Shown here: in pieces, positions 1,532 to 30,118 of the stretch
Layout: each line of letters starts with the position of its first letter
How positions within the stretch are numbered: the first letter of the stretch is position 1
Assembly (NCBI GenBank): GCA_012514035.1
Contig: JAAZBB010000077.1
Span: forward strand, 1-64,000
Origin: Lentisphaerota bacterium
GTDB lineage: Bacteria; Verrucomicrobiota; Kiritimatiellia; CAIQIC01; Lenti-01
Direction of reading: 5' to 3'
DNA: 64,000 bases
Program-made: the position numbers and the translations under genes
Notes under the pieces: model-generated
The model's database searches: none
Told to the model about the DNA's origin: nothing
The model's input: the letters and a program-made list of their open reading frames with translations, nothing else

Positions 1532-2314
1532 CTATGCGCCGCTGGCCTGGATGTCTTCCGGCAGCCGTCCCAGGAGGCGCAGCAGGCCATCGAGAATGGT
1601 GATGGGGTGCGGCGGGCATCCGGGAATGTACAGATCCACCGGCACGATCGCATCCGCCCCGTTGCGCACCTCGTCATGGCCCGCATAGGCCCCGCCGGAG
1701 ATGGCGCAGGCGCCGACGGCGATCACGATCCGTGGCTCGGGCAGTGCGTCGTAGGTTTTCTTCAGTGCCAGCGCCATGTTTTCCGTGACCGGCCCGGTGA
1801 TGAGCAGGCCATCCGCATGCCGCGGGGAGGCCACAAACTGGATGCCGAAGCGCCCCAGATCAAAGACCACCGTGGAGAGCACATTCGTATCCGCCTCGCA
1901 GGCGTTGCATCCGCCGGCGCAGACCTGGCGCAATTTCAAGGACCGCCCGAAGAGGCTTTTCATCCGGGCGTCGAGGGCAGCCGCGAGTTGTGGCTCCCCC
2001 GCCCCAGCCATCAGCTCCCCGCGCGTCCGCGCTGCCAGCCGGTGGTCGCGGGTGAAATGCAGCGCGCCGTGCGGACACGCCGCCGCGCAATTGCCGCAGA
2101 ACAGGCACTTGCCCATATTGATGCGCACCTGGCCGTCTTCGCGCGTGATCGCTCCGACGGGACACGCCGCCGCACATTCAAAGCAGCCGTCGGGACATTT
2201 CCCGGGTTCCAGCTTCGGCAAACCCCGGAACCGGTCGGGCAGGGTTGGCGGCGCGGCGGGATAGCCCACCGTGCGGTGTTTCTGGCGAATACGTTCCAGC
2301 AGTGCCCGGATCAT
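1532..2314 (-). CDS. Hyf-like small subunit with N-terminal ferredoxin domain (HyfI/NuoB-like)
   Basis: 260 residues. Residues ~35-95 carry two [4Fe-4S] ferredoxin motifs (CPDGCFECAAACP and CLFCGNCAAACP). The rest is a NuoB/HycG-like domain with CAGGCNACEADTN, VGACAISGG and IPGCPPHPITILDG, i.e. the CxxC...C...C ligands of the cluster next to the active site. The ferredoxin part is normally a separate subunit (HyfH); here it is fused to the small subunit. The protein should pass electrons from a soluble donor to the large subunit on the cytoplasmic face. ATG 2314 overlaps the stop of the large-subunit gene (ATGA), and it is the last gene of a six-gene operon transcribed from the promoter at 8950. 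All four cluster ligands are kept, although the Ni site of the partner subunit is gone. Confidence 0.85.
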   Translation of the reverse strand: MIRALLERIRQKHRTVGYPAAPPTLPDRFRGLPKLEPGKCPDGCFECAAACPVGAITREDGQVRINMGKCLFCGNCAAACPHGALHFTRDHRLAARTRGELMAGAGEPQLAAALDARMKSLFGRSLKLRQVCAGGCNACEADTNVLSTVVFDLGRFGIQFVASPRHADGLLITGPVTENMALALKKTYDALPEPRIVIAVGACAISGGAYAGHDEVRNGADAIVPVDLYIPGCPPHPITILDGLLRLLGRLPEDIQASGA

Positions 2315-3825
2315 AGGTCATGCCCGCAGTAGGAAAGGTTGAAACTCTTGTTGCACAGCGGAAAGTCCGAAATCTCCATGCCGCGCAGGGCCAGGGCCAG
2401 CCCCATCCAGTTGTGAAACGACGGATCCACCACCTTGTAGCGGGCAAACCGCCCGGCCGCATCCGTTTCCGCCACATGAACGATTTCCCCGCGCCAGCCT
2501 TCGCTGATCGAAACCACCAGCGCATTCGGCGCCAACGGACTGCAGGCCGCACAAATCGAACCCGCCGGCAAAGCCGCGAGCTGACGGCGGATCAACTCGG
2601 CCGATTTCTGGATCTCCAACCAGCGCACATACGCCCGGGCGAAGACGTCGCCGCTTTCCTGCACTGCAGCCGGCCCAGCCCCGAACTCCGCTCCTTCGAC
2701 CGGAAAATCCCTCCGGCTGTCCATGTCGCGTCCGCTGGCGCGGGCCGCCGGCCCGACCAGCCCCAGTTCGATCGCCAGGGCCAGAGAAACGGTTCCCGTG
2801 TGTTCAAAACGTGCCAGCACAGATGGCGTCTCCCATAGAAGATTCACCGCGCCGGCCACGTCCCGGAATGTGGCATCCAGCCGTTGGCGCAGTTCCGCCA
2901 CCCGGGCCGGGTCTGCGTCGAAGGCCGTTCCGCCGGGGCGGACCAGGCCGCGCCCGAACCGGCTGCCGCACAGCAACGCCGTCATGTTCAGGAAATCGCC
3001 CCGCAGGCGGCCGCAAAAAGAAGCCGTGGGGAGGAATCCGATATCCCCCGCCAGCGCCCCGAGATCGCCGGTATGGTTGGCAAGCCGCTCCAGTTCCAGC
3101 GCCACGTCCCGAAGCGCCTGGGCCCGAGCCGGAACGCGGCAGCCCGCCAGCGACTCCACCGCGCGGCAATAGGCCAGCGCATGGCCGATCGTGGTGTCGC
3201 CGGCCAGTGTCTCCATGTGATGGATCGTGCGCGGATGCGGACCGCCCCTCAGAGCGCGTTCGATTCCGCGGTGCTGATAGCCCAGCGAAATTTCCAGATG
3301 CAGGACCTGCTCGCCGTGGCATTGGAAGCGGAAGTGGCCCGGCTCGATGATACCCGCATGCACCGGGCCCACCGCCACTTCGTGTATCCCTTCGCCTTCC
3401 ATGCGGAAGAAATCCATCACCGACGGCGACAGGGCGTCAGTCCCGGTCCGGCCCCACGCATCGTGTCCGGACCGGAACGAACGATGAAACCGCAGGGGCT
3501 TGAGCCAGGGATGCCCGGCCGGCACCACGCCCCACTGTTCGGCTATCTCCCGCTCGAATGCCCCCGCCTGCGGACAATCCGGCGTCAGGGACGGATAGGC
3601 CTCGCCCGGATCCGCGGAGAGAAGGCTCAGTGCCCCCTCCCGATCGTCGGCCAGCACGGCGGTCAGGCGGATGCCGCCCTCGGGTCGCGGCGATCCGTAC
3701 AGCGCCGCAATCCGACGGCCCGCCGCGACGGCCTCGAGAACGTCGCGCCGGAACACGGGCATATCGGCCACCGGGATCCGCGAAACCGGAATCGCCTCCA
3801 GATGCCGAAGAATGACGGCGTTCAT
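2311..3825 (-). CDS. Hyf-like large subunit, NuoC-NuoD fusion, lacking Ni-binding cysteines
   Basis: 504 residues from ATG 3825, which overlaps the preceding stop (ATGA). Residues ~35-130 resemble the 30-kDa NuoC domain, and ~150-504 the NuoD/HycE large subunit (LGYQHRGIERALRG; HALAYCRAVESL). In [NiFe] hydrogenases two CxxC motifs bind Ni-Fe. Here the N-terminal pair is replaced by A208-G-D-T211 (METLAGDTTIGH) and the C-terminal DPCxxC by DPSFHN (467-472). The protein therefore should not bind a [NiFe] centre and cannot be a normal hydrogenase. This matches the described Ehr (energy-converting hydrogenase-related) complexes, whose physiological reaction is not established. Cys491 and Cys500 near the C terminus are of unknown role. 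The upstream open frame to 4170 is only readthrough of the previous gene and is not included. Confidence 0.85.
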   Translation of the reverse strand: MNAVILRHLEAIPVSRIPVADMPVFRRDVLEAVAAGRRIAALYGSPRPEGGIRLTAVLADDREGALSLLSADPGEAYPSLTPDCPQAGAFEREIAEQWGVVPAGHPWLKPLRFHRSFRSGHDAWGRTGTDALSPSVMDFFRMEGEGIHEVAVGPVHAGIIEPGHFRFQCHGEQVLHLEISLGYQHRGIERALRGGPHPRTIHHMETLAGDTTIGHALAYCRAVESLAGCRVPARAQALRDVALELERLANHTGDLGALAGDIGFLPTASFCGRLRGDFLNMTALLCGSRFGRGLVRPGGTAFDADPARVAELRQRLDATFRDVAGAVNLLWETPSVLARFEHTGTVSLALAIELGLVGPAARASGRDMDSRRDFPVEGAEFGAGPAAVQESGDVFARAYVRWLEIQKSAELIRRQLAALPAGSICAACSPLAPNALVVSISEGWRGEIVHVAETDAAGRFARYKVVDPSFHNWMGLALALRGMEISDFPLCNKSFNLSYCGHDL

Positions 3826-5303
3826 GGGGCGTCCCCTCCCAGCAGCCGGGCCGCGTGCCCCAGCAGTCCATTCAGCCCGTTTGGAATCCACAGGCCCAGC
3901 CAGAGGGAGGCCGCCAGCAGGGCCAGGGCGGGGCCGAAGGCGGCCCTGTGTTCCCGGCGTCCGGCGGGCTCGAACTCGTCTGAGACGGGTCCCAGCGCCA
4001 TGCTCAGGAACGTCCGCGCCATGCCGGCAAACGCCACGGCCAGCGCCAGCAGCGCCACCACGGCCATCCATTCCCGACCCGGTGCGAAGGCCGCCCGCAG
4101 CATCGTGAATTCGCTGGCGAATGTGCCGAAGGGCGGCATTCCGGTAATCGCCAGCAGTCCGGCCAGCCACAGCGCCCCGCTGACCGGCAGAAGACGCAGC
4201 GCGCCGCGGGTCCGGGCAACCTGCTTGGTCCGGTAGGCGGCCAGCAGATTTCCGGCCACCATGAACAGTGCCGCCTTGACCAGCGAATGATTCACCGCAT
4301 GCAGCAGCGCGCCGTACAACGCGACGCCGCCCAGTCCCGCCCCCAGCGCCAGCAGCCCCATGTGTTCCACGCTTGAATACGCCAGCAGGCGCTTATAGTC
4401 GGCCTGATTCACCAGAAAGGCGGCGGCGATTCCCATGGACAGCAGTCCGAATCCCGCCAGCAGGTTCCCGCTGAACCCGCCCAGCCCCGCCGCGCTACAG
4501 ATTGAGTGCGCCCGCAGAATCCCCAGAAACGCGCAGTTCAGCAGCGCGCCCGACAACAGGGCGGACACCGGACTGGGCGCCTCGCTGTGGGCATCCGGCA
4601 GCCAGGTGTGCATGGGCGCCAGCCCCATCTTCGTGCCGTAGCCCACCAGCAGGAACACAAACGCGGCCTTCAGCCACGGCGTGCGAAGCTCCGCCCCCTG
4701 CGCCACCAGTTCGCGCACCACCAGCGTCCCGCCCGTGCCGTCCGGGGCCGCCGACGCCACAACCAGCAGGAAGTTTCCCAGCAGCGCCAGCGCAATGCCG
4801 ACCGAGCAGACCAGCAGATATTTCCATGTCGCCTCCAGGGAGCGTGGCTGGCGGTGAAAATAGATCAGCGGGGCCGTGGCCAGAGTCGTGGCTTCCACCG
4901 CCACCCACAGCACGCCCAGATGGCGGCTGGCCGCCACCAGCGTCATGGTCGCCAAAAACGCCAGCAGGCAGGCGGTGTGCACGGCTTCCGGCGCATTGAC
5001 GAATATGGACCCGGTATCCTCTTCGGCCTGGCGGCCGTGCGATTCGATGCTCAGCCGGTGGGCCGCGTACACCGCCACCGCCAGAAACAGCAGGCTGGCG
5101 ATCCCGAGAAACAGCCGCCCGGCCGCATCGAAGCCCAGCCAGGCCTCCGGCGCGCAGGCCGGCGGGCGGATCCAGCAGGCCGCCGTCAGCGCCGCATGGG
5201 CCCCGGCGGTCGCCACCAGCAGCGCGCGGCGCAGCCGGTCGGACCGGATCGCCGCCGCAACCGCCGCTGCAACCGCCGGCAGAAGAATCAGCGTCAGCGT
5301 CAC
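3822..5303 (-). CDS. Hyf-like antiporter-type membrane subunit (HyfF-like)
   Basis: 493 residues, almost entirely hydrophobic helices, of the Mrp/NuoLMN ion-translocating family. Recognisable pieces are the central GYGTKMGLAPMHTWLPDAHSE segment with a conserved Lys and the PMHxWLPDAH signature, SPVSALLSGALLN, and YKRLLAYSSVEHMGL with the conserved Lys of the antiporter-like fold. It would move H+ or Na+ across the cytoplasmic membrane, coupled to electron transfer in the peripheral arm. The start ATG 5303 overlaps the stop of the HyfE-like gene (ATGA), and its own stop overlaps the start of the large subunit. HyfF rather than HyfD is preferred from its ~490-residue length and position after HyfE, but these paralogues are hard to separate by eye. 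Confidence 0.8.
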   Translation of the reverse strand: MTLTLILLPAVAAAVAAAIRSDRLRRALLVATAGAHAALTAACWIRPPACAPEAWLGFDAAGRLFLGIASLLFLAVAVYAAHRLSIESHGRQAEEDTGSIFVNAPEAVHTACLLAFLATMTLVAASRHLGVLWVAVEATTLATAPLIYFHRQPRSLEATWKYLLVCSVGIALALLGNFLLVVASAAPDGTGGTLVVRELVAQGAELRTPWLKAAFVFLLVGYGTKMGLAPMHTWLPDAHSEAPSPVSALLSGALLNCAFLGILRAHSICSAAGLGGFSGNLLAGFGLLSMGIAAAFLVNQADYKRLLAYSSVEHMGLLALGAGLGGVALYGALLHAVNHSLVKAALFMVAGNLLAAYRTKQVARTRGALRLLPVSGALWLAGLLAITGMPPFGTFASEFTMLRAAFAPGREWMAVVALLALAVAFAGMARTFLSMALGPVSDEFEPAGRREHRAAFGPALALLAASLWLGLWIPNGLNGLLGHAARLLGGDAP

Positions 5304-5950
5304 GGCGCCCCCTCCTTCAACGCGTCGAGCTGATCCGCGTCGATGTGGTCAAACTCCCGGTTGATATGGAACACCAGAATGCCCATGACGAACACCGCCA
5401 CGAACACATCCAGCAGCACCCCCAGTTCCACCAGCAGCGGCATGGCCTCCACCACCGCCATGCCCAGGGCGAAAATTCCGTTTTCCATCACGATGTAGCC
5501 CAGCACCTGGGTGATCGCCTTGCCCCGCGCCATGATCAGAAACAGCCCTGTCCAGAGCGTGAACAGCCCCGCCGGCACCAGCAGCGGCGACGGCGACTCC
5601 CACGGCAAAGGCAGCCGTGCGCCGAATGCAAACGCCGCTGCCAGCACCCCCGTCCCGATCAACAGCGAGGGGATGTAGCCGATCAGCGGCTCGATCTCCC
5701 GGCGGACGTGGATTTCCCGCAGCGCCCGGTTCAGCAGTGCCGGAAACACAACCCCCTTGAGCGCCGCGCTGCCCGCCCCCAGCAGCAGCGCCGACCCCGT
5801 CAGATGCCCGTGTGCCAGCCAGGGCAGCAGCCCCAGCGCGACGCCCTGCGCCGCCGCGATGCGGATGGCGTTCCGCAACCGGCTGGATCCCAGCAGAAGC
5901 AGGTCCGTCAGGATCAGGAAAATCAATAAGCTGCCGGTTCCGCTTTGCAT
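5300..5950 (-). CDS. Hyf-like membrane subunit HyfE
   Basis: 216 residues, about six predicted membrane helices. The pattern (ALKGVVFPALLNRALREIHVRREIEP in the middle; GYIVMENGIFALG; and the C-terminal VFVMGILVFHINREFDHID) is that of HyfE, a NuoK-like subunit found in hydrogenase-4-type complexes but absent from the simpler Hyc enzyme. Conserved acidic residues within the helices are thought to take part in ion transfer. ATG 5950 lies 4 bp after the stop of the HyfC-like gene, and the stop overlaps the start of the HyfF-like gene, so the genes are probably translationally coupled. Presence of HyfE supports calling the whole locus hyf-like rather than nuo- or mrp-like. Confidence 0.82.
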   Translation of the reverse strand: MQSGTGSLLIFLILTDLLLLGSSRLRNAIRIAAAQGVALGLLPWLAHGHLTGSALLLGAGSAALKGVVFPALLNRALREIHVRREIEPLIGYIPSLLIGTGVLAAAFAFGARLPLPWESPSPLLVPAGLFTLWTGLFLIMARGKAITQVLGYIVMENGIFALGMAVVEAMPLLVELGVLLDVFVAVFVMGILVFHINREFDHIDADQLDALKEGAP

Positions 5951-5954
5951 CGCC

Positions 5955-6857
5955 TCACCGAATCGTCAGCAGCAAGCCCAGCGTGCACAAGACGCCCGCG
6001 CCCACCAGCAACTGTGGCACCCGCAGCAGCCGCACCCGGGCCGTGACGGATTCCACGATGCCCGTCAGAACCGCCAGCGCCAGAATTCCGCCCGCCCCGG
6101 CCGCCAAGCGGGTCAGCGGCCCCGGCAGCGTCCCCAGCGGAAGCAGACCGGCCCACAGCGCCCCCAGCACCCACAGTTTCAGCGCCGAACCCCACTGGAT
6201 GAAGCCAAAATCCACGGCCCCGTGGTCCAGGACCATCACCTCGTGGATCATCGTCAGTTCCAGATGCGTATTGGGATCATCCACCGGAATCCGGCAATTT
6301 TCCGCCAGATAGAGGATGAAAAAGCCCGCGCCGAGCAGGATGCGCAGCGGCAGCTCCCAGCCCGTCGCCAGTTCCGCGTAGATCGGCGACAGCGACAGGC
6401 TCTGGGTTTCGCGCGCCAGCGCCGCCAGGCCGATCAGCAGCGCCGGCTCGGTAAAGACCGCAAACTGCACCTCGCGGCTCGCTCCCATGCCCTCGAAACT
6501 CGATCCGGTATCCAGCGCCGCCGACACCGTGAAAAACCGCCCCAGCCCCAGCACATAGGCCAGCAGGATCCAGTCGCCATCGAAGGCGACCGGCGCGGAC
6601 AGTCCGCCCGCCGGCACGACCAGCAGCGCCACCAGCAGGCAGGCGAACTGGACGATCGGCCCCGCTCGGAACACCCACGTCGTGGTCCGGCTATAGGTGC
6701 CACCCTTGCGCAGCAGCTTCCACAAATCGCGGTAGCCCTGCCCCCACGGCGGCCCGCAACGGCCCGCGAACAGCGCTTTCACCCGCTGGATCAGCACCGG
6801 CAGCAGCGGCGCCAGCGCCACCGCCAAGATCGGATGCAACCACGATGCCAGCTTCAT
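5955..6857 (-). CDS. Hyf-like membrane anchor subunit (HyfC/HycD/NuoH-like)
   Basis: 300 residues from ATG 6857 (MKLASWLHPI), overlapping the stop of the HyfB-like gene (ATGA). It is a NuoH/HycD-type protein with about eight helices. The signature loop YRDLWKLLRKGG near residue 45, EPALLIGLAALA, and the charged loop YLAENCRIPVDDPNTHLELTMIHEVM (conserved Glu/Asp/His) are characteristic. This subunit forms the junction between the electron-transfer arm and the ion-translocating arm, where redox energy is thought to enter the membrane. The conserved acidic loop is intact, which argues that the complex still couples electron flow to ion movement despite the missing Ni ligands. Confidence 0.85.
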   Translation of the reverse strand: MKLASWLHPILAVALAPLLPVLIQRVKALFAGRCGPPWGQGYRDLWKLLRKGGTYSRTTTWVFRAGPIVQFACLLVALLVVPAGGLSAPVAFDGDWILLAYVLGLGRFFTVSAALDTGSSFEGMGASREVQFAVFTEPALLIGLAALARETQSLSLSPIYAELATGWELPLRILLGAGFFILYLAENCRIPVDDPNTHLELTMIHEVMVLDHGAVDFGFIQWGSALKLWVLGALWAGLLPLGTLPGPLTRLAAGAGGILALAVLTGIVESVTARVRLLRVPQLLVGAGVLCTLGLLLTIR

Positions 6858-8896
6858 GCCCACAGCGCCCACCCCAGCAGCAGCACCAGCACCAGCACAA
6901 TGTAAAAGACATACCAATGCACCCGTCCCTGCTGCAGCCAGCGCAACTGCCCCATCCGCCACGCCGCCCGTCGGAACAGCGGATCAAAGAACAACTGGCT
7001 CGCCATGTCCGGCGTCTCCGACCGGTAGGCGCTGGCCGCCGGATACACCCCCGACGGCAGTTTGCTTTCGATCTGCGGGCGCAGGATGCCCCGCGCCGCC
7101 TGCGTCAACGGCTGGGCAAAGCCCGTCGCCGTGTACTGCATGCTCGCCGTCGGCGCCGCATAGCCACAATCCCACGTCACCGTCTCGCGGCCCGCGTGCC
7201 CCGCCAGCAGCCGGCGGCGAATCCCTGCCAGCGCCGCCACCGCCAGCACCAGCGCCGCTAGCAGCCCGAACAGCGCAATCGGCACCAGCGCGCGCACGGC
7301 ACCCGGCGCCGCCTCGGCGGGCGACATCCCGCCCGCCAGCAGCCCCACCACCGGCTCCATCCAGCGTACGCCCCGCGCCATCAACAGCCCGAACACCCCG
7401 CACAGCCCCGCCAGTGCCAGCATTGGAAGGCGCATGGACAGCCCGACCTCCGACGCCATGGCCGCCATGCCCGACCGCGGCTCACCTAAAAAGACGATCC
7501 CGAACGCCTTGGTGAAGCAAGCCGCCGCCAGCCCCCCCACCAGCGCCAGCGACACCAGCACCACCGCGCCGCCGAGCACCGCCGCATCCCCGCCGATGAT
7601 TCCCTCGATCGCCCCCACAAAGATCAGGAATTCACTGACAAACCCATTCAGTGGCGGCAGGCCGCAGATCGCCACCGACCCGATCAGAAACGTCGCGCCC
7701 GTCCACGGCATCCGTTTCAGCGCGCCGCCCAGCAGATCGATGTTGCGCGTGCCCGTCGCGTGCGTCACCGCGCCCGCCCCGAGAAACAGCAGCCCCTTGA
7801 ATATCGCGTGGTTCAGCACATGCAGCAATCCGCCGGCGAACCCCAGCGCGGCGAGACCCGGCAGGCCCAGTGTCATCCCCAGCATCCCCAGGCCGATCCC
7901 CAGTGCGATGATGCCGATGTTCTCCACGCTGTGATACGCCAGCAGCCGCTTGAGATCATGCTGCGCCAGTGCAAACAGCACGCCCAGAATTCCAGATGCC
8001 GCGCCGATCCCCAGGACCAGCCAGGCGCACCAGCCCGGAACCGTCCCCAGAATCGCCAGCAGCCGCACGATCCCATAGATGCCGGTTTTGATCATCACGC
8101 CCGACATCACCGCCGACACCGGGCTCGGCGCCGCCGGGTGGGCCTCCGGCAGCCAGACATGCAGGGGATACAGCCCGGCCTTGGTCCCGAATCCGGCCAG
8201 CCCCAGCAAGAACAGCCCCCCCGCCATGCCCGCCGGGGCCGCATAGGTTCCGAAATCCTGCGATCCGGCCGCACGCCCCAGCAGCACGAACAAGCCGATC
8301 AGCAACGCCGTGCCGAGGTGCGTGGCCACCAGGTAAATCCAGCCCGCGTGCGCCGACCGGGAATCCGCCTCGTCGAAAATCACCAGGAAAAACGACGCCA
8401 TCGTCATAATCTCCCATGCCGCCAGGAACAGCACCCCGTTGCGGGCCGCGACCACCAGCGCCATGCTCGCCACCAGCCCGTTATAGAACAGCCAGAAGCG
8501 GCCCGGATTCCGCCCCTTCCACGAACGGAAATAGCCGATGGCATACAGCGCCGCCAGCCCCGACAGCAGGAACAGCGGAATCAGGAAAAAGGCGCTCAGG
8601 GGGTCCAGGCCCAGGCGGAATTCGCCGTAAGGCATCCGCCAAGGCCTCGCCACGGTCAGGTCCACCCGCCGGAGCAGCGCTCCGACCGCTGCCGCCAGTC
8701 CCGCGCCGCAGGCCAGTCCCGCGCCGCCCGCGCCGATCCCAACCGCCCAGCGCTCGGACCACCGCCCCGCCAACAGCGATCCGACGCCGGACGCGGCCAG
8801 GAGCGCCAGCGCCCCCGCCAAGAGCCCAAACAGATAAATTCCTTCCAGCGGCATGGCAAGATAAACGAATAATGGACACGAATACACCCCGGCCAT
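6854..8896 (-). CDS. Hyf-like antiporter-type membrane subunit HyfB
   Basis: 680 residues and the first gene of the hyf-like operon. It is a NuoL/HyfB-type antiporter-like protein: KAGLYPLHVWLPEAHPAAPSP and HDLKRLLAYHSVENIGIIALG carry the conserved Lys/His residues, and the C-terminal extension (VTWDCGYAAPTASMQYTATGF) is typical of HyfB/HycC. The start is uncertain. ATG 8896 gives an unusual N terminus, while ATG 8854 (MPLEGIYLFGLL) begins directly at the first helix; neither has a clear Shine-Dalgarno. The promoter at 8923-8950 would place the transcript start about 20 nt before 8896, so both are possible. HyfD is absent, so the complex has two antiporter-like subunits (this one and HyfF-like). 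Confidence 0.83.
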   Translation of the reverse strand: MAGVYSCPLFVYLAMPLEGIYLFGLLAGALALLAASGVGSLLAGRWSERWAVGIGAGGAGLACGAGLAAAVGALLRRVDLTVARPWRMPYGEFRLGLDPLSAFFLIPLFLLSGLAALYAIGYFRSWKGRNPGRFWLFYNGLVASMALVVAARNGVLFLAAWEIMTMASFFLVIFDEADSRSAHAGWIYLVATHLGTALLIGLFVLLGRAAGSQDFGTYAAPAGMAGGLFLLGLAGFGTKAGLYPLHVWLPEAHPAAPSPVSAVMSGVMIKTGIYGIVRLLAILGTVPGWCAWLVLGIGAASGILGVLFALAQHDLKRLLAYHSVENIGIIALGIGLGMLGMTLGLPGLAALGFAGGLLHVLNHAIFKGLLFLGAGAVTHATGTRNIDLLGGALKRMPWTGATFLIGSVAICGLPPLNGFVSEFLIFVGAIEGIIGGDAAVLGGAVVLVSLALVGGLAAACFTKAFGIVFLGEPRSGMAAMASEVGLSMRLPMLALAGLCGVFGLLMARGVRWMEPVVGLLAGGMSPAEAAPGAVRALVPIALFGLLAALVLAVAALAGIRRRLLAGHAGRETVTWDCGYAAPTASMQYTATGFAQPLTQAARGILRPQIESKLPSGVYPAASAYRSETPDMASQLFFDPLFRRAAWRMGQLRWLQQGRVHWYVFYIVLVLVLLLGWALWA

Positions 8897-8922
8897 GACT
8901 GGTCCGGGGAAATCAACTGCGG

Positions 8923-8950
8923 CTTATACGCCATTTCCAAGGCGTGTCAA
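8923..8950 (-). promoter_or_regulatory. Sigma-70-type promoter of the hyf-like operon
   Basis: Reading leftward, TTGACA (8950-8945), a 16-bp spacer and TATAAG (8928-8923) form a near-consensus housekeeping promoter in the 89-bp gap between recR and the hyfB-like gene. It separates the hyf-like operon from the upstream recR-ybaB-dnaX unit on the same strand and predicts initiation near 8916. Confidence 0.75.
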
Positions 8951-8985
8951 GCAAGCCCCCTGAGCTCTGACGTCTGATCTATTCT

Positions 8986-9579
8986 TCAAGCTTCCGTCCG
9001 GCCCCGGATCGCGCGGCCCAGCGTCACGGGATCGGAATACGCGATGGCGCTGCCGGCCGGGATGCCGAGCGCCAGGCGGCTGATTTTGATCCGGGGCAAT
9101 TGCTGCGAGAAAACGTGCCGCAGATAAGATGCGGTCGCTTCGCTCTCCACGTCGGAATTGAGCGCCAGCAGGACTTCCTTGACGGTGGCCGCGCGCTCCA
9201 GCAGGGCGGGCAGCCGCAGGTCCCCGATCCCCTCGCCACGCATCGGGGACATTTTCCCCAGCAGGGCGAAATAGCGGCCGCGGTATTCGCCGCTGCGCTC
9301 GATCAGGGCGATGTCCGCCGGATCTTCCACTACGCAAAGAATATCATCCTCGCGGCGGGGATCGGCGCACAGGCGGCAGGGATTCTCCTCCCGGGCCGTC
9401 ACGCTGCCGCACAGCTTGCAGGCCGTCAGCTTGGTCCGCGCCTCATCCAGGGCCGTCGCCAGCTCCCGGGCGGTTCCCGAGGAATTCCGCACCAGATGGA
9501 TGGCCATGCGCTCCGCGGTCCGCCGACCGACACCCGGCAATTGGGCCAGGGCCGCCGTCAAATGCGCCAGCGGATCCAC
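8986..9579 (-). CDS. recR: Recombination protein RecR
   Basis: 197 residues, the usual length for RecR, which with RecO loads RecA at gapped DNA in the RecF pathway. The N-terminal helix-hairpin-helix (LAQLPGVGRRTAERMAIHLV), the zinc finger (CKLCGSV...CRLC, about residues 54-72) and the Toprim domain (LCVVEDPADIALIERS; GKMSPMRGEGIGDL) are all present in order. It follows ybaB by 3 bp, the classic dnaX-ybaB-recR order found across bacteria. The last gene of this housekeeping unit; the next gene downstream has its own promoter. Confidence 0.95.
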   Translation of the reverse strand: MDPLAHLTAALAQLPGVGRRTAERMAIHLVRNSSGTARELATALDEARTKLTACKLCGSVTAREENPCRLCADPRREDDILCVVEDPADIALIERSGEYRGRYFALLGKMSPMRGEGIGDLRLPALLERAATVKEVLLALNSDVESEATASYLRHVFSQQLPRIKISRLALGIPAGSAIAYSDPVTLGRAIRGRTEA

Positions 9580-23701: not shown

Positions 23702-25456
23702 CTAGCGCTTGTATTTCAGGCGGACGTGGTAGCCGGTATGCAGCAGTTCATGGGATTTGCGGCCGAGGGGCGTCCCGAGGAAATCCCGGTAGAGTTTTTT
23801 AATCATGGGGTTTTCGTGCGAGCAGCGGAAGGCGCTCTTTTCGTCGTCGCGGTAGATGCCCGCCGCGCGCCGGGCGCGGATCTCGTCGGTGGCGCCGTAC
23901 GGCTGGCCGCCGCCGCCGACGCAGCCGCCGCGGCAAGCCATCACCTCGATGAAGTGGTACGGTGTCTCCTGCCCCTTCTTGCGTGCCGCGCGCACCCTGT
24001 CGAGGACCTTCTCGATGTTGGCCATCGAGTGGGCCACCGCCACGCGCACTTCCTTGCCCGCCACCTGCAGCGTGGCCTCCTTCACGCCGTCGAGACCCCG
24101 GATCGCCGTCAGCTCCATGGAGGGCAGGCGCTCCTTTGTCAGCGCCCAGTGGGCGGTGCGCAGCGCGGCCTCCATCACGCCGCCGGTCACGCCGAAGATC
24201 GTGCCGGCCCCGGTGTAGTCGCCCAGCAGCGAGTCCACCCGTTCGTCGTCGGGCAGATTCGAAAAGTCAATGCCGGCGCTCTTGATCATCCGGCACAGCT
24301 CGCGCGTCGTCAGCGAGTAATCGATGTCCTGCTGGCCGGAGCTGCGCATTTCCTCGCTGCGCCGGATTTCGAACTTCTTGGCCGTGCAGGGCATGATGGA
24401 GACCACGAAGATGTCCTTGGGATCCAGCCCGATCCGCTTGGCGTAGTAGGTCTTCGCCAGCGCCCCGACCATCGCCTGCGGCGACTTGGCCGTCGAGAAG
24501 TGCGCAATGAAGTCCGGCGCGAACTTTTCCATGTAGTCGGTCCACGACGGGCAGCAGCTGGTGATCAGCGGCAGCTCGCCCTTGCCGTGCACGAAGCGTT
24601 CGACGAACTCGGAGCCCTCTTCCATGATGGTGAGGTCGGCGCCAAAATTGGTGTCGAACACCGCGTTGAATCCGAGGCGCCGCAGGGCCGAGTAGATCTT
24701 GCCCGTCAGCAGCGTGCCGGGTGCATAGCCGAAATCCTCGCCCAGGGCCACGCGCACCGCCGGGGCAATCTGCACCACGCAGTGCTTCTTCGAATCCGCC
24801 AGCGCCGCGTACACTTCCTTCGCGTGGCTGTGCTCGTAGATTGCGCCCACCGGGCAGTGCGCCGAGCACTGGCCGCACTGGATGCAGGGCGATTCGTTGA
24901 GGGTCACATCCGCCGCCGGCGCGATGCGCGTGTTTTCGCCGCGCCCGATGAATTCCAGCGCCCAGACCCCCTGCATCTGCTGGCAGACCGCCGCGCAGCG
25001 CCCGCACAGGATGCATTTCTCCGGATTCAGGATCAGCGAGCCGGTCGAATCGTCCTCCGGCAGGTCGCGCAGCCGCTTGCCGAAGGGCGCCTCCCGCACA
25101 CCGAACTCCGCGGCCAGCCGCTGCAACTCGCAGTTCTGGTTGCGCGGACATTGCAGACAGTCGTCCGGATGCGTCGAGAGGATCATTTGAATCACCGTGC
25201 GCCGGATGGCGTAAAGTTCCGGGTCGTGGGTGAGGATTTCCTGGCCTTCCGCCGCCGGGGCCACGCACGCGCGCACCAGTTTGCTGAATCCTTTGACCTT
25301 CACCACGCAGATGCCGCAGGCCGCCCAGGCCGGCAGGTCGGGGTGGTAACACAGGCTGGGAATCTTCACTTGCACCTGCTTGGCGGCGTTCAGGATCGTG
25401 GTGCCTTCCGGCACCTCCACGGGCAGCCCGTTGATGGTCAGCTTGACGGTCTTCAT
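23702..25456 (-). CDS. hndD: [FeFe] hydrogenase catalytic subunit (HndD-like)
   Basis: 584 residues. Domain order: N-terminal [2Fe-2S] domain (SLCYHPDLPAWAACGICVV), His-Cys3 [4Fe-4S] motif (HPDDCLQCPRNQNC), two ferredoxin clusters (CILCGRCAAVC; CIQCGQCSAHCP), then the H-cluster domain with the three signatures TSCCPSW, MPCTAKKFE and MACRGGCVGGGGQP, all ligand cysteines intact, and the small-subunit-like C terminus. It reduces protons or oxidises H2 as part of the HndABCD (NADP-reducing or electron-bifurcating) complex. AGAGGGA lies 8 nt before ATG. Last gene of the hndA-B-C-D operon. The maturases HydE, HydF and HydG needed to build the H-cluster are not in the window. Confidence 0.95.
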   Translation of the reverse strand: MKTVKLTINGLPVEVPEGTTILNAAKQVQVKIPSLCYHPDLPAWAACGICVVKVKGFSKLVRACVAPAAEGQEILTHDPELYAIRRTVIQMILSTHPDDCLQCPRNQNCELQRLAAEFGVREAPFGKRLRDLPEDDSTGSLILNPEKCILCGRCAAVCQQMQGVWALEFIGRGENTRIAPAADVTLNESPCIQCGQCSAHCPVGAIYEHSHAKEVYAALADSKKHCVVQIAPAVRVALGEDFGYAPGTLLTGKIYSALRRLGFNAVFDTNFGADLTIMEEGSEFVERFVHGKGELPLITSCCPSWTDYMEKFAPDFIAHFSTAKSPQAMVGALAKTYYAKRIGLDPKDIFVVSIMPCTAKKFEIRRSEEMRSSGQQDIDYSLTTRELCRMIKSAGIDFSNLPDDERVDSLLGDYTGAGTIFGVTGGVMEAALRTAHWALTKERLPSMELTAIRGLDGVKEATLQVAGKEVRVAVAHSMANIEKVLDRVRAARKKGQETPYHFIEVMACRGGCVGGGGQPYGATDEIRARRAAGIYRDDEKSAFRCSHENPMIKKLYRDFLGTPLGRKSHELLHTGYHVRLKYKR

Positions 25457-25469
25457 CGTTCCATCCCTC

Positions 25470-27257
25470 TCAGCGGCGGCTCACGGCGCCGAACTTGCAG
25501 GCCTTGAGGCACTCGCCGCACTTGATGCAGTTCTCCTGGAGGATCCGGTGCGGCTTCTGCCGCTCGCCCGCGATCGTGTTCACCGGGCACTTGCGCGCGC
25601 ACAGCGTGCAGCCGATGCATTTCGCCGGATCGATCTCGTAGGTCACCAGCTTCTTGCAGACCCCGGCCGGGCAGCGCCGGTCCTGGATATGCGCGCGGTA
25701 TTCCTCCTCGAAATACTTCATGGTGGACAGCACCGGATTGGGCGCGGTCTGCCCCAGCCCGCACAGCGCGGCCTTCTGCATCGCCAGCCCCACCTCGCGG
25801 ATCTTGTCGAGATCCTCCGCCCCGCCCCGGCCCGCCGTGATCTTATCGAGCAGGTTCAGCAGGGTGCGCGTGCCGATCCGGCAGGGGGCGCACTTGCCGC
25901 AGCTTTCGTCCACGCAGAACTCCTGGTAGAACCGCGCCACGTCTACCATGCAGTCGTCCGCGTCCATCACGATCATCCCGCCCGAGCCCATGATGGACCC
26001 CAGCTCCTGCAAGTGCTCGTAGTCGATCGGCGTGTCAAGATACTCCGCCGTGATGACGCCGCCGGAGGGCCCGCCCGTCTGCACCGCCTTGAAGGCCTTG
26101 CCACCGCGGATGCCCCCGCCAATGTCGTAGATGATCTCGCGCAGAGTGATGCCCATGGGCACCTCGATCAGCCCCGAGTTGATGATCTTGCCCGTCAGGG
26201 CAAACACCTTCGTCCCGGGGCTCTTCGGCGTGCCAATGCGGGCGAAGGCCTCGCCGCCGTTCAGCAAAATGACCGGGATGTTGGCGTAGGTCTCGACGTT
26301 GTTGATCACCGTGGGCTTCTGCCAGAGGCCCGAGACCGCCGGAAACGGCGGGCGCGGAATCGGCATGCCCCGCTTGCCCATGATCGACGCCAGCAGCGCG
26401 GTTTCCTCGCCGCAGACGAACGCCCCGGCCCCGAGCCGGATCTCGACCTCGAAATCAAAGCCCGTTCCCAGGATGTCTTTGCCCAGCAACCCGTACTCAT
26501 GGGCCTGCGCAATGGCCGTCTCCAGATGCTGGATCGCCAGCGGATATTCCGCGCGGATGTAGATCACGCCCTTGGACGCCCCCACCGTCCGCCCCGCAAT
26601 CGCCATCGCCTCCAGGATCGAATGCGGATCGCCCTCGATCGTCGAGCGGTCCATGTAGGCCCCGGGATCGCCTTCGTCCGCATTGCACACCACATATTTC
26701 TCGCTGCCGGGCGCGTCCTTCGTGAACTTCCACTTCAGCCATGTCGGGAACCCCGCGCCGCCGCGGCCGCGTAGGCCGGATTTCTTGAGCTCCTCGACCA
26801 CCTGGTCCGGCGTCATCTCCGTCAGCACCTTCGCCAGCGCCTCGTAGCCCATCCGCGCGATGTATTCGTCGATCTTCTCCGGATCGATCACCCCGCAATT
26901 GCGCAGCACCACCCGCACCTGCTTCTGGCAAGCAGGCCGGTCGCCGGATGTTGCGCGCCCGCCGGGCGGGGGCGGATTCAACCGCAGCCGCGTCACGGGC
27001 TGGCTCTTGACCACGTGCTCCGCCACGATCTCCGGCGCGTCCGCCGGCCGCACCTTCGCGTAGAACATCTCGTCAGGCAGGACCTTGACGATCGGCCCCT
27101 GCGCACACAGGCCGAAGCAGCCAGTGCGCACCACTTGCGCGGTTTCGGATACGCCCTGCTCTCCCAGTTCGCGCTTCAGCGCCTCGTAGAGCTCCGCACC
27201 GCCCTGCGTTCCGCAGTTCGCGCCGGTGCAGACCAGCAAATAGGTCTTGATCGCCAT
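25470..27257 (-). CDS. hndC: NADH-binding flavoprotein subunit of the hydrogenase (HndC/NuoF-like)
   Basis: 595 residues from ATG 27257 (MAIKTYLLVCTGANCG), chosen over the upstream ATG 27320 because of the GGAG site 8 nt before it and the family start. Residues ~1-90 form a thioredoxin-like [2Fe-2S] domain (CTGANCGTQ, RTGCFGLCAQGP). Residues ~120-500 are the NuoF domain with FMN/NADH-binding GLRGRGGAGFPTWLKW and GAGAFVCGEETALLASI, and the ESCGKCAPCRIGT [4Fe-4S] motif. Two C-terminal ferredoxin clusters follow (CIGCTLCARKCP; CIKCGECLKACK). It exchanges electrons between NAD(P)H and HndD, and in bifurcating relatives is the presumed flavin site. The spacing to hndD is 13 bp. Confidence 0.95.
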   Translation of the reverse strand: MAIKTYLLVCTGANCGTQGGAELYEALKRELGEQGVSETAQVVRTGCFGLCAQGPIVKVLPDEMFYAKVRPADAPEIVAEHVVKSQPVTRLRLNPPPPGGRATSGDRPACQKQVRVVLRNCGVIDPEKIDEYIARMGYEALAKVLTEMTPDQVVEELKKSGLRGRGGAGFPTWLKWKFTKDAPGSEKYVVCNADEGDPGAYMDRSTIEGDPHSILEAMAIAGRTVGASKGVIYIRAEYPLAIQHLETAIAQAHEYGLLGKDILGTGFDFEVEIRLGAGAFVCGEETALLASIMGKRGMPIPRPPFPAVSGLWQKPTVINNVETYANIPVILLNGGEAFARIGTPKSPGTKVFALTGKIINSGLIEVPMGITLREIIYDIGGGIRGGKAFKAVQTGGPSGGVITAEYLDTPIDYEHLQELGSIMGSGGMIVMDADDCMVDVARFYQEFCVDESCGKCAPCRIGTRTLLNLLDKITAGRGGAEDLDKIREVGLAMQKAALCGLGQTAPNPVLSTMKYFEEEYRAHIQDRRCPAGVCKKLVTYEIDPAKCIGCTLCARKCPVNTIAGERQKPHRILQENCIKCGECLKACKFGAVSRR

Positions 27258-27267
27258 GTCCGTCTCC

Positions 27268-27654
27268 TCACGCCTTCCGGCCCGGCAGGTCCGCCACGGG
27301 CTTGTCGAAAATGTGATCATTCACCAGCAACTTCCGCCCCAGGTGCTGGTTCACGATCTTGCGCGCCGTCTCGGCATCCACGCGGCCGTAGACCACCGTC
27401 GGCATCCCCGGCACGGCCACCTCCACGGTCGGCTCGCTGTGGCAAAGCCCCATGCAGCCCGTTCGCCGGATCTGCACCGCGCCCAGGCCGACTTTCGCCA
27501 GCTCCTTCTCAAACAACGCCAGCAAATCCGCCGCCCCGGCCGCGATCCCGCACGTGCCCAGGCCCACCGTAATGCGCACCTGGCCCGCAGAGGCCCCGCC
27601 CGCCGCGCACGCCGCGCGCAGCTTCCGCAAATCCGCCAGTTTCAGCTTCGCCAT
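27268..27654 (-). CDS. hndB: Thioredoxin-like [2Fe-2S] subunit HndB
   Basis: 128 residues. MAKLKLADLRKLRAACAA, then VGLGTCGIAAGAADLL and RTGCMGLCHSEPTVEV are typical of HndB, a thioredoxin-fold [2Fe-2S] ferredoxin found in NADP-reducing hydrogenases of the Desulfovibrio fructosovorans type and absent from the three-subunit HydABC enzyme. Its presence supports an HndABCD-type four-gene operon. It is separated from hndA by 24 bp and from hndC by 10 bp, and presumably relays electrons between HndA and HndC in the cytoplasm. Confidence 0.9.
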   Translation of the reverse strand: MAKLKLADLRKLRAACAAGGASAGQVRITVGLGTCGIAAGAADLLALFEKELAKVGLGAVQIRRTGCMGLCHSEPTVEVAVPGMPTVVYGRVDAETARKIVNQHLGRKLLVNDHIFDKPVADLPGRKA

Positions 27655-27678
27655 CCTGCACCTCGTTTCCGTTGCGGT

Positions 27679-28182
27679 CTATGCCTGCGCCTTGTACTGC
27701 GCGAGAATCCCGGCCACGTCCTCGCGCTTCAGGTTGCCGTGCATCGTGCCGTTGACCGACATCACGGGCGCGAGCCCGCAGCACCCCAGGCACCGCACCG
27801 CCTCCACCGAAAACATTCCGTCTGGCGTCACGGTGTTCAGGCCCACCCCCAGGATGTGCTCCAGCTCCTGGAGAAGGCCCGCGGCCCCCTTCAGGTAGCA
27901 CGCCGTGCCCATGCAGACCGAAATCCGGTACCGGCCCGGCGCCTTCAGCTTGAAGAAGTGATAGAACGTCAACACCCCGTACACCTTGGCCAGCGGAATT
28001 CCAAGCTGCTCCGCAACCTGAAACGCCACCGGACGCGGCACGTAGCCGAAATGTTCCTGCACCTTGTGCAGAACCATGATCAGGTTGCCCGGCACGTTTT
28101 TCCATTTCCGGATGAACGCCTCCAACTCCGGCGTCAGTTTGTTGTCCGCCACCGGCTCGACCACCTGTTCTTTCCTTGCCAT
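27679..28182 (-). CDS. hndA: NuoE-like [2Fe-2S] subunit HndA
   Basis: 167 residues from ATG 28182 (MARKEQVVEPVADNKL), preceded by a GGAGG site 6 nt upstream. It is a NuoE/HndA-type thioredoxin-fold protein. KVQEHFGYVPRPVAFQVAEQLGIPLAKVYGVLTFYHFF is the family core, and the four ligands lie in CMGTACYLKG and CLGCCGLAP. It is the first gene of hndABCD, facing rex head to head across a 158-bp AT-rich control region. Such genes are classic Rex targets, because NADH accumulation releases the repressor and allows hydrogen production to regenerate NAD+. Confidence 0.93.
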   Translation of the reverse strand: MARKEQVVEPVADNKLTPELEAFIRKWKNVPGNLIMVLHKVQEHFGYVPRPVAFQVAEQLGIPLAKVYGVLTFYHFFKLKAPGRYRISVCMGTACYLKGAAGLLQELEHILGVGLNTVTPDGMFSVEAVRCLGCCGLAPVMSVNGTMHGNLKREDVAGILAQYKAQA

Positions 28183-28340
28183 TCGAAACCTCCGTAAATA
28201 CGGAATGTAAATGTGCACAGGCTATGAAAACGCTTTTTTGCTTTCAAGTTCATTTTATAGAAATTTTCACTTGATTTACATATATGCATTCCTTAACGTT
28301 CGCTGGTCACATAATAAATACTATTCATAGGGTTAATGTG
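28183..28340. promoter_or_regulatory. Divergent hnd/rex control region
   Basis: An AT-rich stretch unlike its GC-rich surroundings. Inverted repeats seen: TCAAGT (28245-28250) and ACTTGA (28270-28275), with TTTTATAGAAA between; and TCACAT (28306-28311) with ATGTGA (28335-28340) next to the rex start. No canonical Rex box (TTGTTAA-N4-TTAACAA or TTGTGAA-N4-TTCACAA) was found, so the operator is unassigned. TATAAA read leftward within the first repeat could be the hnd -10 element. Confidence 0.5.
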
Positions 28341-29024: not shown

Positions 29025-30023
29025 CTAGCCGGCGGAGGTCATGGCCGCCGACAGCTTCTGGATGAAGGCATTGAGTTCCGGATCCGCCCTCATTTTCCGC
29101 TGAAACCGTTCCATCTGGCGGCACACGGCGCCCGGTGTCCCAAACCCCAGATAGGTCCTCACCGCGCGCTGCGTCATCCGGCTGTGCCTCATCAGCATGT
29201 AGATAGCCGCTGTCCGGGCGCCGCCGCCATAGGTCCGCCGAAACAGGGACTCCTCCTCCACGCCGAATGCCGATGCCACCCGGCGAACCACCTCTTCCGG
29301 TTCGATACGAGCCGCCACCCGCCGCACAGACTCCGAGCGGTTCCCGCGAATTGCTCCCGGCACAGGGACCGGGGAGTCCTGCTCCGTAGGCTTGTCGCGG
29401 GACGTGTCAAATCCACTCTCCTGCTCCCATCGTGACAATGGCCACGAAAGGCCCGCCTCGACAAACCGGCGATAGGCGTCGCGTCGATCGGCAATCCTTT
29501 TCTTGCCCATTAAGGCCAGGAGAGGTTTGTCATCCAGCATCTCCGGCACAGGCGCCAGCCCGGAATAACTGCGAAAGCTACTCCAGATATACTCGTTCAG
29601 GCGAGCCAGCCGCTGCCTGTTCGACCTCTGCGCAGCCGGCTCGTGGGCCACGGGATTCAGATGGATATACCGCGACAGATTCAGCAGATAGCGATCTCCC
29701 TTCACCAGAACCGCTCCATACCGCCCCTGCACCAGATGACCGGTACGGTCGTGCCGCAGATTGAAATACAAAGTGTAGGCCGTTTGCAACCGATGCATGA
29801 AGCGGCTGAGATTGCCTTGCGGGGTTTCCACCAGCAAATGTAAATGGTTGGGCATGAGACAGTATAGATAGAGGCGAATGCCATCCTGCCCCACGGCCCA
29901 GTCCAGGTTCTCCATGAACCGCCGACGGTCCGCATCATCCATGAAAATCAATCCGCGGCCCGCCCCCCGCTGGGTCACGTGATAAATCGCTCCCTCGTAT
30001 TCGACACGCCGTTTTCTACCCAT
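29025..30023 (-). CDS. Y1-family (HUH) transposase with DnaA domain-IV-like C terminus
   Basis: 332 residues from ATG 30023 (MGRKRRVEYEGAIYHV). The N-terminal ~190 residues are a Y1/RAYT-like transposase: HUH motif His60-Leu-His62 in MPNHLHLLVET, and nucleophile Tyr119 in RYIHLNPV. The C-terminal ~90 residues (EEVVRRVASAFGVEEESLFRR; GARTAAIYMLMRHSRMTQRAV; GTPGAVCRQMERFQRKM) have the pattern of the DnaA C-terminal DNA-binding helix-turn-helix, a fusion known in some larger Y1 transposases. A hydrophilic linker (about 200-240) joins them. Palindromes with GTGTCAGACAC flank the gene on both sides, and the left one has altered rex. It appears intact. The frame is open upstream to 30086, but that part is border repeat. 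Confidence 0.88.
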   Translation of the reverse strand: MGRKRRVEYEGAIYHVTQRGAGRGLIFMDDADRRRFMENLDWAVGQDGIRLYLYCLMPNHLHLLVETPQGNLSRFMHRLQTAYTLYFNLRHDRTGHLVQGRYGAVLVKGDRYLLNLSRYIHLNPVAHEPAAQRSNRQRLARLNEYIWSSFRSYSGLAPVPEMLDDKPLLALMGKKRIADRRDAYRRFVEAGLSWPLSRWEQESGFDTSRDKPTEQDSPVPVPGAIRGNRSESVRRVAARIEPEEVVRRVASAFGVEEESLFRRTYGGGARTAAIYMLMRHSRMTQRAVRTYLGFGTPGAVCRQMERFQRKMRADPELNAFIQKLSAAMTSAG

Positions 30024-30066
30024 GTTGCCATTCTGCCAATCCGTTCTTGTCCTCGCAAGCCAAATA

Positions 30067-30118
30067 TGAGTGCCTGACACTGACATTTTGTTTATGATAT
30101 ATGGGTGTCAGACACTCA
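30067..30118. repeat. Palindrome at right border of Y1 transposase unit
   Basis: TGAGTGCCTGACAC (30067-30080) and GTGTCAGACACTCA (30105-30118) are inverted repeats with one mismatch and a 24-nt AT-rich loop. The left arm runs into TGACA, giving CTGACACTGACA, which also occurs in the left border (28996-29005 as GACACTGACA). Confidence 0.75.

Follow-up and report, generated by a model that had tools for sequence, protein, structure and literature searches.

Ehr complexes occur in many phyla, and the papers cited here call their function unknown. They are described there as having a group 4-like phylogeny and a large subunit without the [NiFe] CxxC motifs (PMC7894505, PMC8691401, PMC10284858, PMC10432482, PMC7304191, PMC6349859). 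Ehr is suspected in the literature of moving ions across the membrane by coupling to a redox reaction in the cytoplasm. The Ehr of Geobacter, going by its published description, joins membrane subunits of the Hyf type to one large and one small subunit (those named are EhrA, EhrC, EhrL and EhrS). The same holds for the operon reported here, which lies on the minus strand (8896 to 1532) of a 64,000-nucleotide stretch of DNA, hereafter the window, from a Lentisphaerota bacterium (GenBank assembly GCA_012514035.1, contig JAAZBB010000077.1, positions 1 to 64,000). The Geobacter cluster is described with seven locus tags, against six genes in the window, and the features of the window operon that can be set against that description are a ferredoxin-fused small subunit and the extra cysteines C169, C286, C491 and C500. 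As judged by its sequence, the window locus is an additional member of Ehr, a known class with a function that is still unsolved. Membership in Ehr had been proposed in an earlier note on this DNA and is supported by the motifs, the operon and the tree described below. The explanation favoured here, to which we give about an even chance, is that the operon encodes a complete six-subunit Ehr complex in which electrons are predicted to pass from ferredoxin to an acceptor, probably neither H2-related nor a quinone, and thereby to drive ion pumping.

The six-gene complex is real and maintained. As stated in the earlier note, all six genes are intact; they are open frames with neighbours never more than 4 bases apart, and the ratio of non-synonymous to synonymous substitution rates (dN/dS) is 0.12-0.35 for all six against four relatives (24 gene pairs), indicating purifying selection. 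In order, all on the minus strand, they encode an EhrA/HyfB-like antiporter-type subunit of 680 aa (6854..8896; Pfam PF00361, E 3e-48; NCBIfam hydrogenase 4 subunit B, 585.5 bits, under the cut-off of 667), an EhrB/HyfC-like (NuoH-type) subunit of 300 aa (5955..6857; PF00146, E 4e-30), an EhrC/HyfE-like subunit of 216 aa (5300..5950; NCBIfam hydrogenase 4 membrane subunit E, 5e-25, under its cut-off), an EhrD/HyfF-like antiporter-type subunit of 493 aa (3822..5303; PF00361, E 1e-50), the large subunit EhrL of 504 aa (2311..3825), and the small subunit EhrS of 260 aa (1532..2314; PF12838, PF01058). EhrL is a fusion of a 30-kDa (NuoC-like) and a 49-kDa (NuoD/HycE-like) domain, and EhrS begins with a 2x[4Fe-4S] ferredoxin domain, which is joined to a NuoB-like domain. 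The overlapping starts noted earlier are present at four of the five junctions as 4-base overlaps (ATGA at 6857-6854, 3825-3822 and 2314-2311, GTGA at 5303-5300) but not at the fifth, where 4 bases separate the HyfC-like and HyfE-like genes. The near-consensus promoter also noted is TTGACA-N16-TATAAG (8950-8923, minus strand, 27-54 bases upstream of the first start codon), which has one match in the window and none in 100 shuffles; a stricter scan, which requires T as the last -10 base, listed no site in 8700-9100. The same six-gene order is complete in 64 of the 80 named Ehr loci, some of which are cut by contig ends.

The counterparts of B, C, E, F, G and I follow the same order in the Hyf cluster of Escherichia coli, and the structure of Hyc (7z0s) is the closest solved structure. 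Compared with Hyf/Hyc, the window operon has neither the CxxC ligands and the C-terminal extension of the large subunit nor a counterpart of HyfA or HyfD; its HyfH-like domain is joined to the HyfI-like one, and the NuoH-type stretch is replaced. Neither the domain fusions in EhrL and EhrS nor the missing HyfD figure in the earlier note. A fold search with EhrL revealed a shared fold only, with HycE as the best solved relative. The chain 6u8y_L, which we take to be MBS (of the MBS/Mbx sulfane reductases) and which the structure listing names NADH dehydrogenase subunit D, matched EhrL at E 1e-15, behind MbhL (6cfw_L) at 1e-34.

In the large-subunit alignment, Cys occupies all four metal-ligand positions in 9/9 hydrogenase rows (HycE, HyfG, three more formate-hydrogenlyase-type proteins, Mbh of the source genome and three proteins that we label Ech/Coo-type) and in none of the 31 Ehr rows. 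The residues of the window EhrL at these positions are A208, T211, S498 and G501, and both CxxC motifs of a group 4 [NiFe] hydrogenase are therefore absent. The earlier note was correct in reading AGDT (residues 208-211; 3193..3204, minus strand) in place of the first CxxC. Its choice of DPSFHN (467-472) as the second site was wrong, as this stretch aligns near RAATYANW of HycE, and alignments to HycE, HyfG, Mbh and others put the site at S498-Y499-C500-G501 (SYCG; 2323..2334, minus strand), which sits within the C-terminal CNKSFNLSYCGHDL. EhrL stops three residues past SYCG, where HycE, HyfG and Mbh run 32-34 residues further. All 31 Ehr rows share the same end residue, and the three Ech/Coo-type and the NuoD-type rows are also without the extension. 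Glu161 and Arg445 are kept in EhrL, as in all nine hydrogenase rows.

The C-terminal tail includes both C491 and C500 in 81/81 sequences (the window copy and 80 named loci). Another 20 complete tails came from genomes of the phylum; 19 of them keep the pair, and the remaining one (L144 in our numbering of loci) has Ala at 500. In eight distant Ehr (Rhizobium, Azospirillum, Cupriavidus, Paraburkholderia, Rhodococcus, a Meiothermus relative, Methylocalor and the second copy of Variovorax), residue 500 is Ser or Ala, and residue 491 is Ile or Thr in five of them and Cys in three. The first Variovorax copy, which has a ferredoxin-fused small subunit, retains the pair. The C491/C500 pair thus tends to accompany the two-cluster ferredoxin type, although not in L144. 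In Ehr from genomes without UbiA (L126, L130, L132, L135, L137, L139, L140 and L144), T211 is Ser in 5/8 and H215 is changed in 4/8, and the C-terminal NKSFxLSYxGxDL tail is kept in 8/8.

EhrL shares with complex I (NuoB/C/D/H/L/M) the fold of the large subunit and a C-terminus at the end point of NuoD, and the two systems have proton-path residues in common. Ehr differs in having no NADH arm, in lacking the quinone residues and in a proximal motif that is CxxC and not tandem CC. The positions that we take to be His38 and Tyr87 of complex I, with their presumed role in quinone binding, are occupied by H and Y in 4/4 NuoD-type rows but replaced in 31/31 Ehr rows, being I160 and G209 in the window. 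A second replacement is found in EhrB: where NuoH, HyfC, HycD and Mbh have an acidic stretch, EAExE[LI], EhrB has the motif THLELTMIHE (residues 197-206; 6240..6269, minus strand). When aligned, these four non-Ehr proteins (the Mbh being that of the source genome) read PFDxxEAExE[LI], and Ehr reads P[VF]DDPxTHLELTM[IV]HE. The form THLELTM[IV]HE was found in 85/85 sequences (the window copy and the 84 of 100 loci with a long enough match), with I204 changed to V in two, and [ST]HLELTM[IVL]HE in 7/7 distant Ehr. The counterpart of this stretch in complex I borders the quinone cavity. We know of no description of the EhrB motif, for which the literature was not searched by name. In both antiporter-type subunits the proton-path residues E144, K234, H348 and E407 (NuoM numbering) are intact, and position 265 is K in EhrA and N in EhrD, as in HyfF.

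The earlier note had the small subunit keeping its cluster, and this was borne out: the proximal Cys C136, C139, C203 and C233 of the window EhrS are intact, as are Cys 40/44/47/51/70/73/76/80 of the ferredoxin domain (two clusters), giving twelve cluster Cys in total. Electrons would enter through the ferredoxin domain fused to EhrS and then pass its two [4Fe-4S] clusters and the proximal cluster to the old [NiFe] pocket, which appears to be rebuilt as AGDT and CNKSFNLSYCGHDL, with C491/C500 as a possible redox pair or ligands. The THLELTMIHE stretch of EhrB may then relay the change to the two antiporter-type subunits. Because the cluster ligands and the proton-path residues are intact, the window copy could plausibly couple electron flow to the pumping of ions; its donor, acceptor, direction, ion and the pumping itself are inferred.

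In a tree of 44 large subunits, the 31 Ehr rows are split from the nine hydrogenases and four NuoD-type proteins by a branch with 100/100 support, and the first Variovorax copy forms one 100/100 clade within Ehr with 22 rows of the ferredoxin-type set, 23 rows in all. Without the motif columns, support is 100/99 for both. The reference rows were assigned to Ehr by motif and operon, none of the records being annotated as Ehr, whether of Geobacter or otherwise. The closest named relatives of the large subunit come from metagenome-assembled genomes (MAGs) labelled Verrucomicrobia, Opitutia and Lentisphaerae. Clustering of the large subunit with true [NiFe] Hyf, which the earlier note had named as refuting its reading, is not seen in the tree.

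The source genome (2.78 Mb, 94 percent complete) includes a complete Mbh-type [NiFe] hydrogenase operon on another contig (C42; L089:3755-11935). This Mbh belongs to the same superfamily as Ehr and likewise has a ferredoxin-type iron-sulphur subunit and antiporter-type modules, which are Mrp-like, but it has both CxxC motifs (CGIC and CISC) and a C-terminal extension of 34 residues past the Ehr end, none of which is found in Ehr. HypD is also present. At 23702-28218 the window has a HydABC-type [FeFe] hydrogenase of group A, whose partners are NuoF-like, NuoE-like and thioredoxin-like ferredoxin proteins, and the genome encodes at least two enzymes of this group, the second HydA being at G000:C2:66268-67440. 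No NADH arm (NuoE/F/G) was found in the six-gene operon, and the NuoE/F-like genes of the window, at 25-28 kb, are neighbours of the [FeFe] enzyme. The [FeFe] hydrogenase reported in the earlier note is therefore present, but its co-occurrence with Ehr, taken there as a clue to a division of labour, is not specific: group A enzymes over cut-off were found in 68 of the 75 closest Ehr carriers (E < 1e-150) and, among the 87 genomes that have neither Ehr nor quinone markers, in 67 of the 80 covered. This co-occurrence carries little weight, and the Mbh of the same genome is a better contrast to Ehr. In the source genome there is no RnfC over cut-off and neither of the two terminal oxidases searched (cytochrome bd and COX1), and the organism is apparently an anaerobic fermenter that has none of the known quinone pathways.

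Distribution was assessed in 288 genomes of the phylum, 86 of which carry EhrL at E <= 1e-60, and bears on three alternative explanations. That Ehr is a ferredoxin:quinone oxidoreductase, that is, complex I minus the NADH arm, is distinctly improbable. Besides the replacement of the His38/Tyr87 equivalents and of the NuoH stretch, no MqnA/D and no MenD over cut-off was found in the source genome (the best MenD match, 84.7 bits against a cut-off of 244.2, is read here as an acetolactate synthase-type enzyme) or in 64 of the 86 carriers. Such markers are present in 115 of 202 non-carriers (odds ratio 0.26, Fisher p 1.4e-6, kinship not corrected for), with carriers not being independent, as 20 of the 75 closest fall in one family (f35). 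Sub-cut-off MenD was counted as absent, including G225 (184 bits) and G242 (178 bits) of the same genus as the source genome, and ubiquinone genes were covered only via UbiA, a family without a match at E <= 0.001 in 22/86 carriers (one of which, G201, has MqnA/D). These counts agree with a published remark that in Riflemargulisbacteria with Ehr neither the ubiquinone nor the menaquinone pathway was found in full (PMC6349859). A complex linked to formate dehydrogenase, as proposed for Margulisbacteria, is very improbable for the window. The FDH-Ehr proposal draws on fdhA neighbourhoods (PMC6349859), and Ehr subunits of Geobacter are reported to be more abundant on formate than with hydrogen (PMC7894505), but PF01568 molybdoenzymes occur in only 19 of the 86 carriers, and none was found in the other 67 or in the source genome, where a gene could sit in the missing part of the 94 percent complete assembly. 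It is extremely improbable that Ehr is a [NiFe] hydrogenase with unusual ligands. Glu161 and Arg445 would suit such an enzyme, but no Cys occupies any of the four ligand positions in 31 rows, and Ehr forms a separate clade. HypD, which is required for the [NiFe] site, is present in 39 of the 75 closest carriers and absent from 36; the statement in the earlier note that there is no H2 chemistry is supported by this and by the missing ligands. Quinone, formate dehydrogenase and [NiFe] chemistry are thus unlikely to be essential to Ehr. The presence of RnfC over cut-off in 37/75 carriers neither requires nor excludes Ehr as a replacement for Rnf.

Two of the remaining alternatives turn on relatives in which the proximal cluster has been lost. 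Allomeiothermus silvanus carries on a plasmid a complete six-gene Ehr operon (L087:6960-14135) with T, D, E and S at the four proximal ligands and only four of the eight ferredoxin Cys (51, 70, 73 and 76), in which THLELTMIHE and the pump residues are still intact. The small subunit was compared with its 120 best homologues, a few of which are fragments or gapped at ligand positions. The four ligands are all missing in 71 of these, all present in 46 and partly present in three; named cluster-less sources include Thermus, Meiothermus, Calidithermus, Gaiellaceae and Acidimicrobiales. Within the clade of the window, a Planctomycetales MAG (L053; large subunit 65 percent identical) has N, E, E and W at the proximal ligands in a small subunit (L053:11528-12253) that retains all eight ferredoxin Cys, and its six genes are at dN/dS 0.10-0.20 against L026, indicating purifying selection, with dS >1 in all six pairs. 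On a tree of 68 small subunits, complete loss of the proximal ligands requires four changes, at least three of which are forced by starred branches; the tree was built from 122 columns with the ligand columns excluded, subsamples the 120 homologues and has many unresolved forks. A literature search covering open-access titles and abstract openings found no description of an Ehr without the proximal cluster. With the proximal ligands gone, the usual electron route to the old active site is closed in these complexes, and as the one tested is under purifying selection, the function that Ehr complexes have in common may not be the delivery of electrons to this pocket. Ehr could then be basically an ion transporter, coupled independently of any electron transfer to the pocket; in the window type, the iron-sulphur arm would serve to regulate or boost it. 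This is possible but unlikely, as all four proximal Cys are retained in 94/96 small subunits of the set of the window copy and the copy itself has all twelve cluster Cys. Cluster-less small subunits were seen within an operon, otherwise intact, in A. silvanus and L053 only. A related proposal, which we regard as doubtful, is that Ehr is a complex I-type ion machine with a site of its own and not a disabled hydrogenase. In it, the invariant H198, E200, H205 and E206 of EhrB, facing the GD motif and the NKSFxLSYxGxDL tail of EhrL, would bind a metal or small molecule, and chemistry at this site, rather than terminal electron transfer, would drive the pump, the clusters being an add-on largely discarded in such lineages as Thermus and Meiothermus. 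Reverse operation, in which an ion gradient would drive ferredoxin reduction with electrons from a mild donor, is rather improbable; the fused ferredoxin domain suits either direction and the Mbh and Ech relatives can run in both, but no conserved donor enzyme was seen beside the operon.

Several observations weigh against the favoured explanation of a ferredoxin-driven pump. A redox pump should not survive loss of the proximal cluster, which has occurred in relatives that retain the EhrL and EhrB signatures. The AlphaFold model has predicted local confidence (pLDDT) below 50 at residues 145-185 and 485-504, which is the pocket region. Quinone markers are present in 22/86 carriers, and given the three UbiA-family matches in the source genome, an unusual or scavenged quinone is possible. 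RnfC occurs in all of the 27/75 carriers that have no quinone markers, PF01568 or HypD, and a second ferredoxin pump would not obviously be needed there. Finally, when the open frames around 100 Ehr loci were clustered, none of the 40 largest clusters was recognised as a conserved partner gene beside the operon. Electron-coupled ion pumping, although plausible for the window copy, cannot be taken as defining the function of Ehr, since the proximal cluster is gone from relatives that share this core.

As judged by position and letters, the largest of these open-frame clusters are mostly antisense or shadow frames of Ehr genes; the real flanking genes recognised are a generic ATP-binding cassette (ABC) transporter ATPase in nine loci and a long protein in six. 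A gene annotated as a fused major facilitator superfamily (MFS)/spermidine synthase lies immediately upstream of Ehr operons in Variovorax (L088:16487-17221) and Paraburkholderia (L094:1990-2823). The Variovorax plasmid has two distinct Ehr operons close by (L088:6872-25015), one with a ferredoxin-fused small subunit and the other without. One phylum genome has a tandem pair of Ehr operons (L138:1376-19900), the second cut by the end of the stretch, and two HyfB-like genes are found inside the L053 operon (L053:3101-6957). In the window, candidate transposase genes lie at 652-1500, with repeated GC-rich stretches seen by eye around this first one, and at 29025-30086; by their motif, both look like transposase genes associated with repetitive extragenic palindromic (REP) sequences.

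For the ferredoxin-fused Ehr type, these data narrow the question, as many carriers can do without the known quinone pathways, without formate dehydrogenase of the PF01568 type and without [NiFe] maturation. Two sequence handles for experiments are provided by the motif of EhrB and by C491/C500, and the natural cluster-less relatives allow testing whether Ehr is a redox pump at all. The interest of the locus is raised accordingly, as a question about the whole class is now testable through named residues and natural variants. If Ehr is not a redox pump, it would be a complex I-type machine that is not driven by delivery of electrons to the cavity, which would be a new principle.

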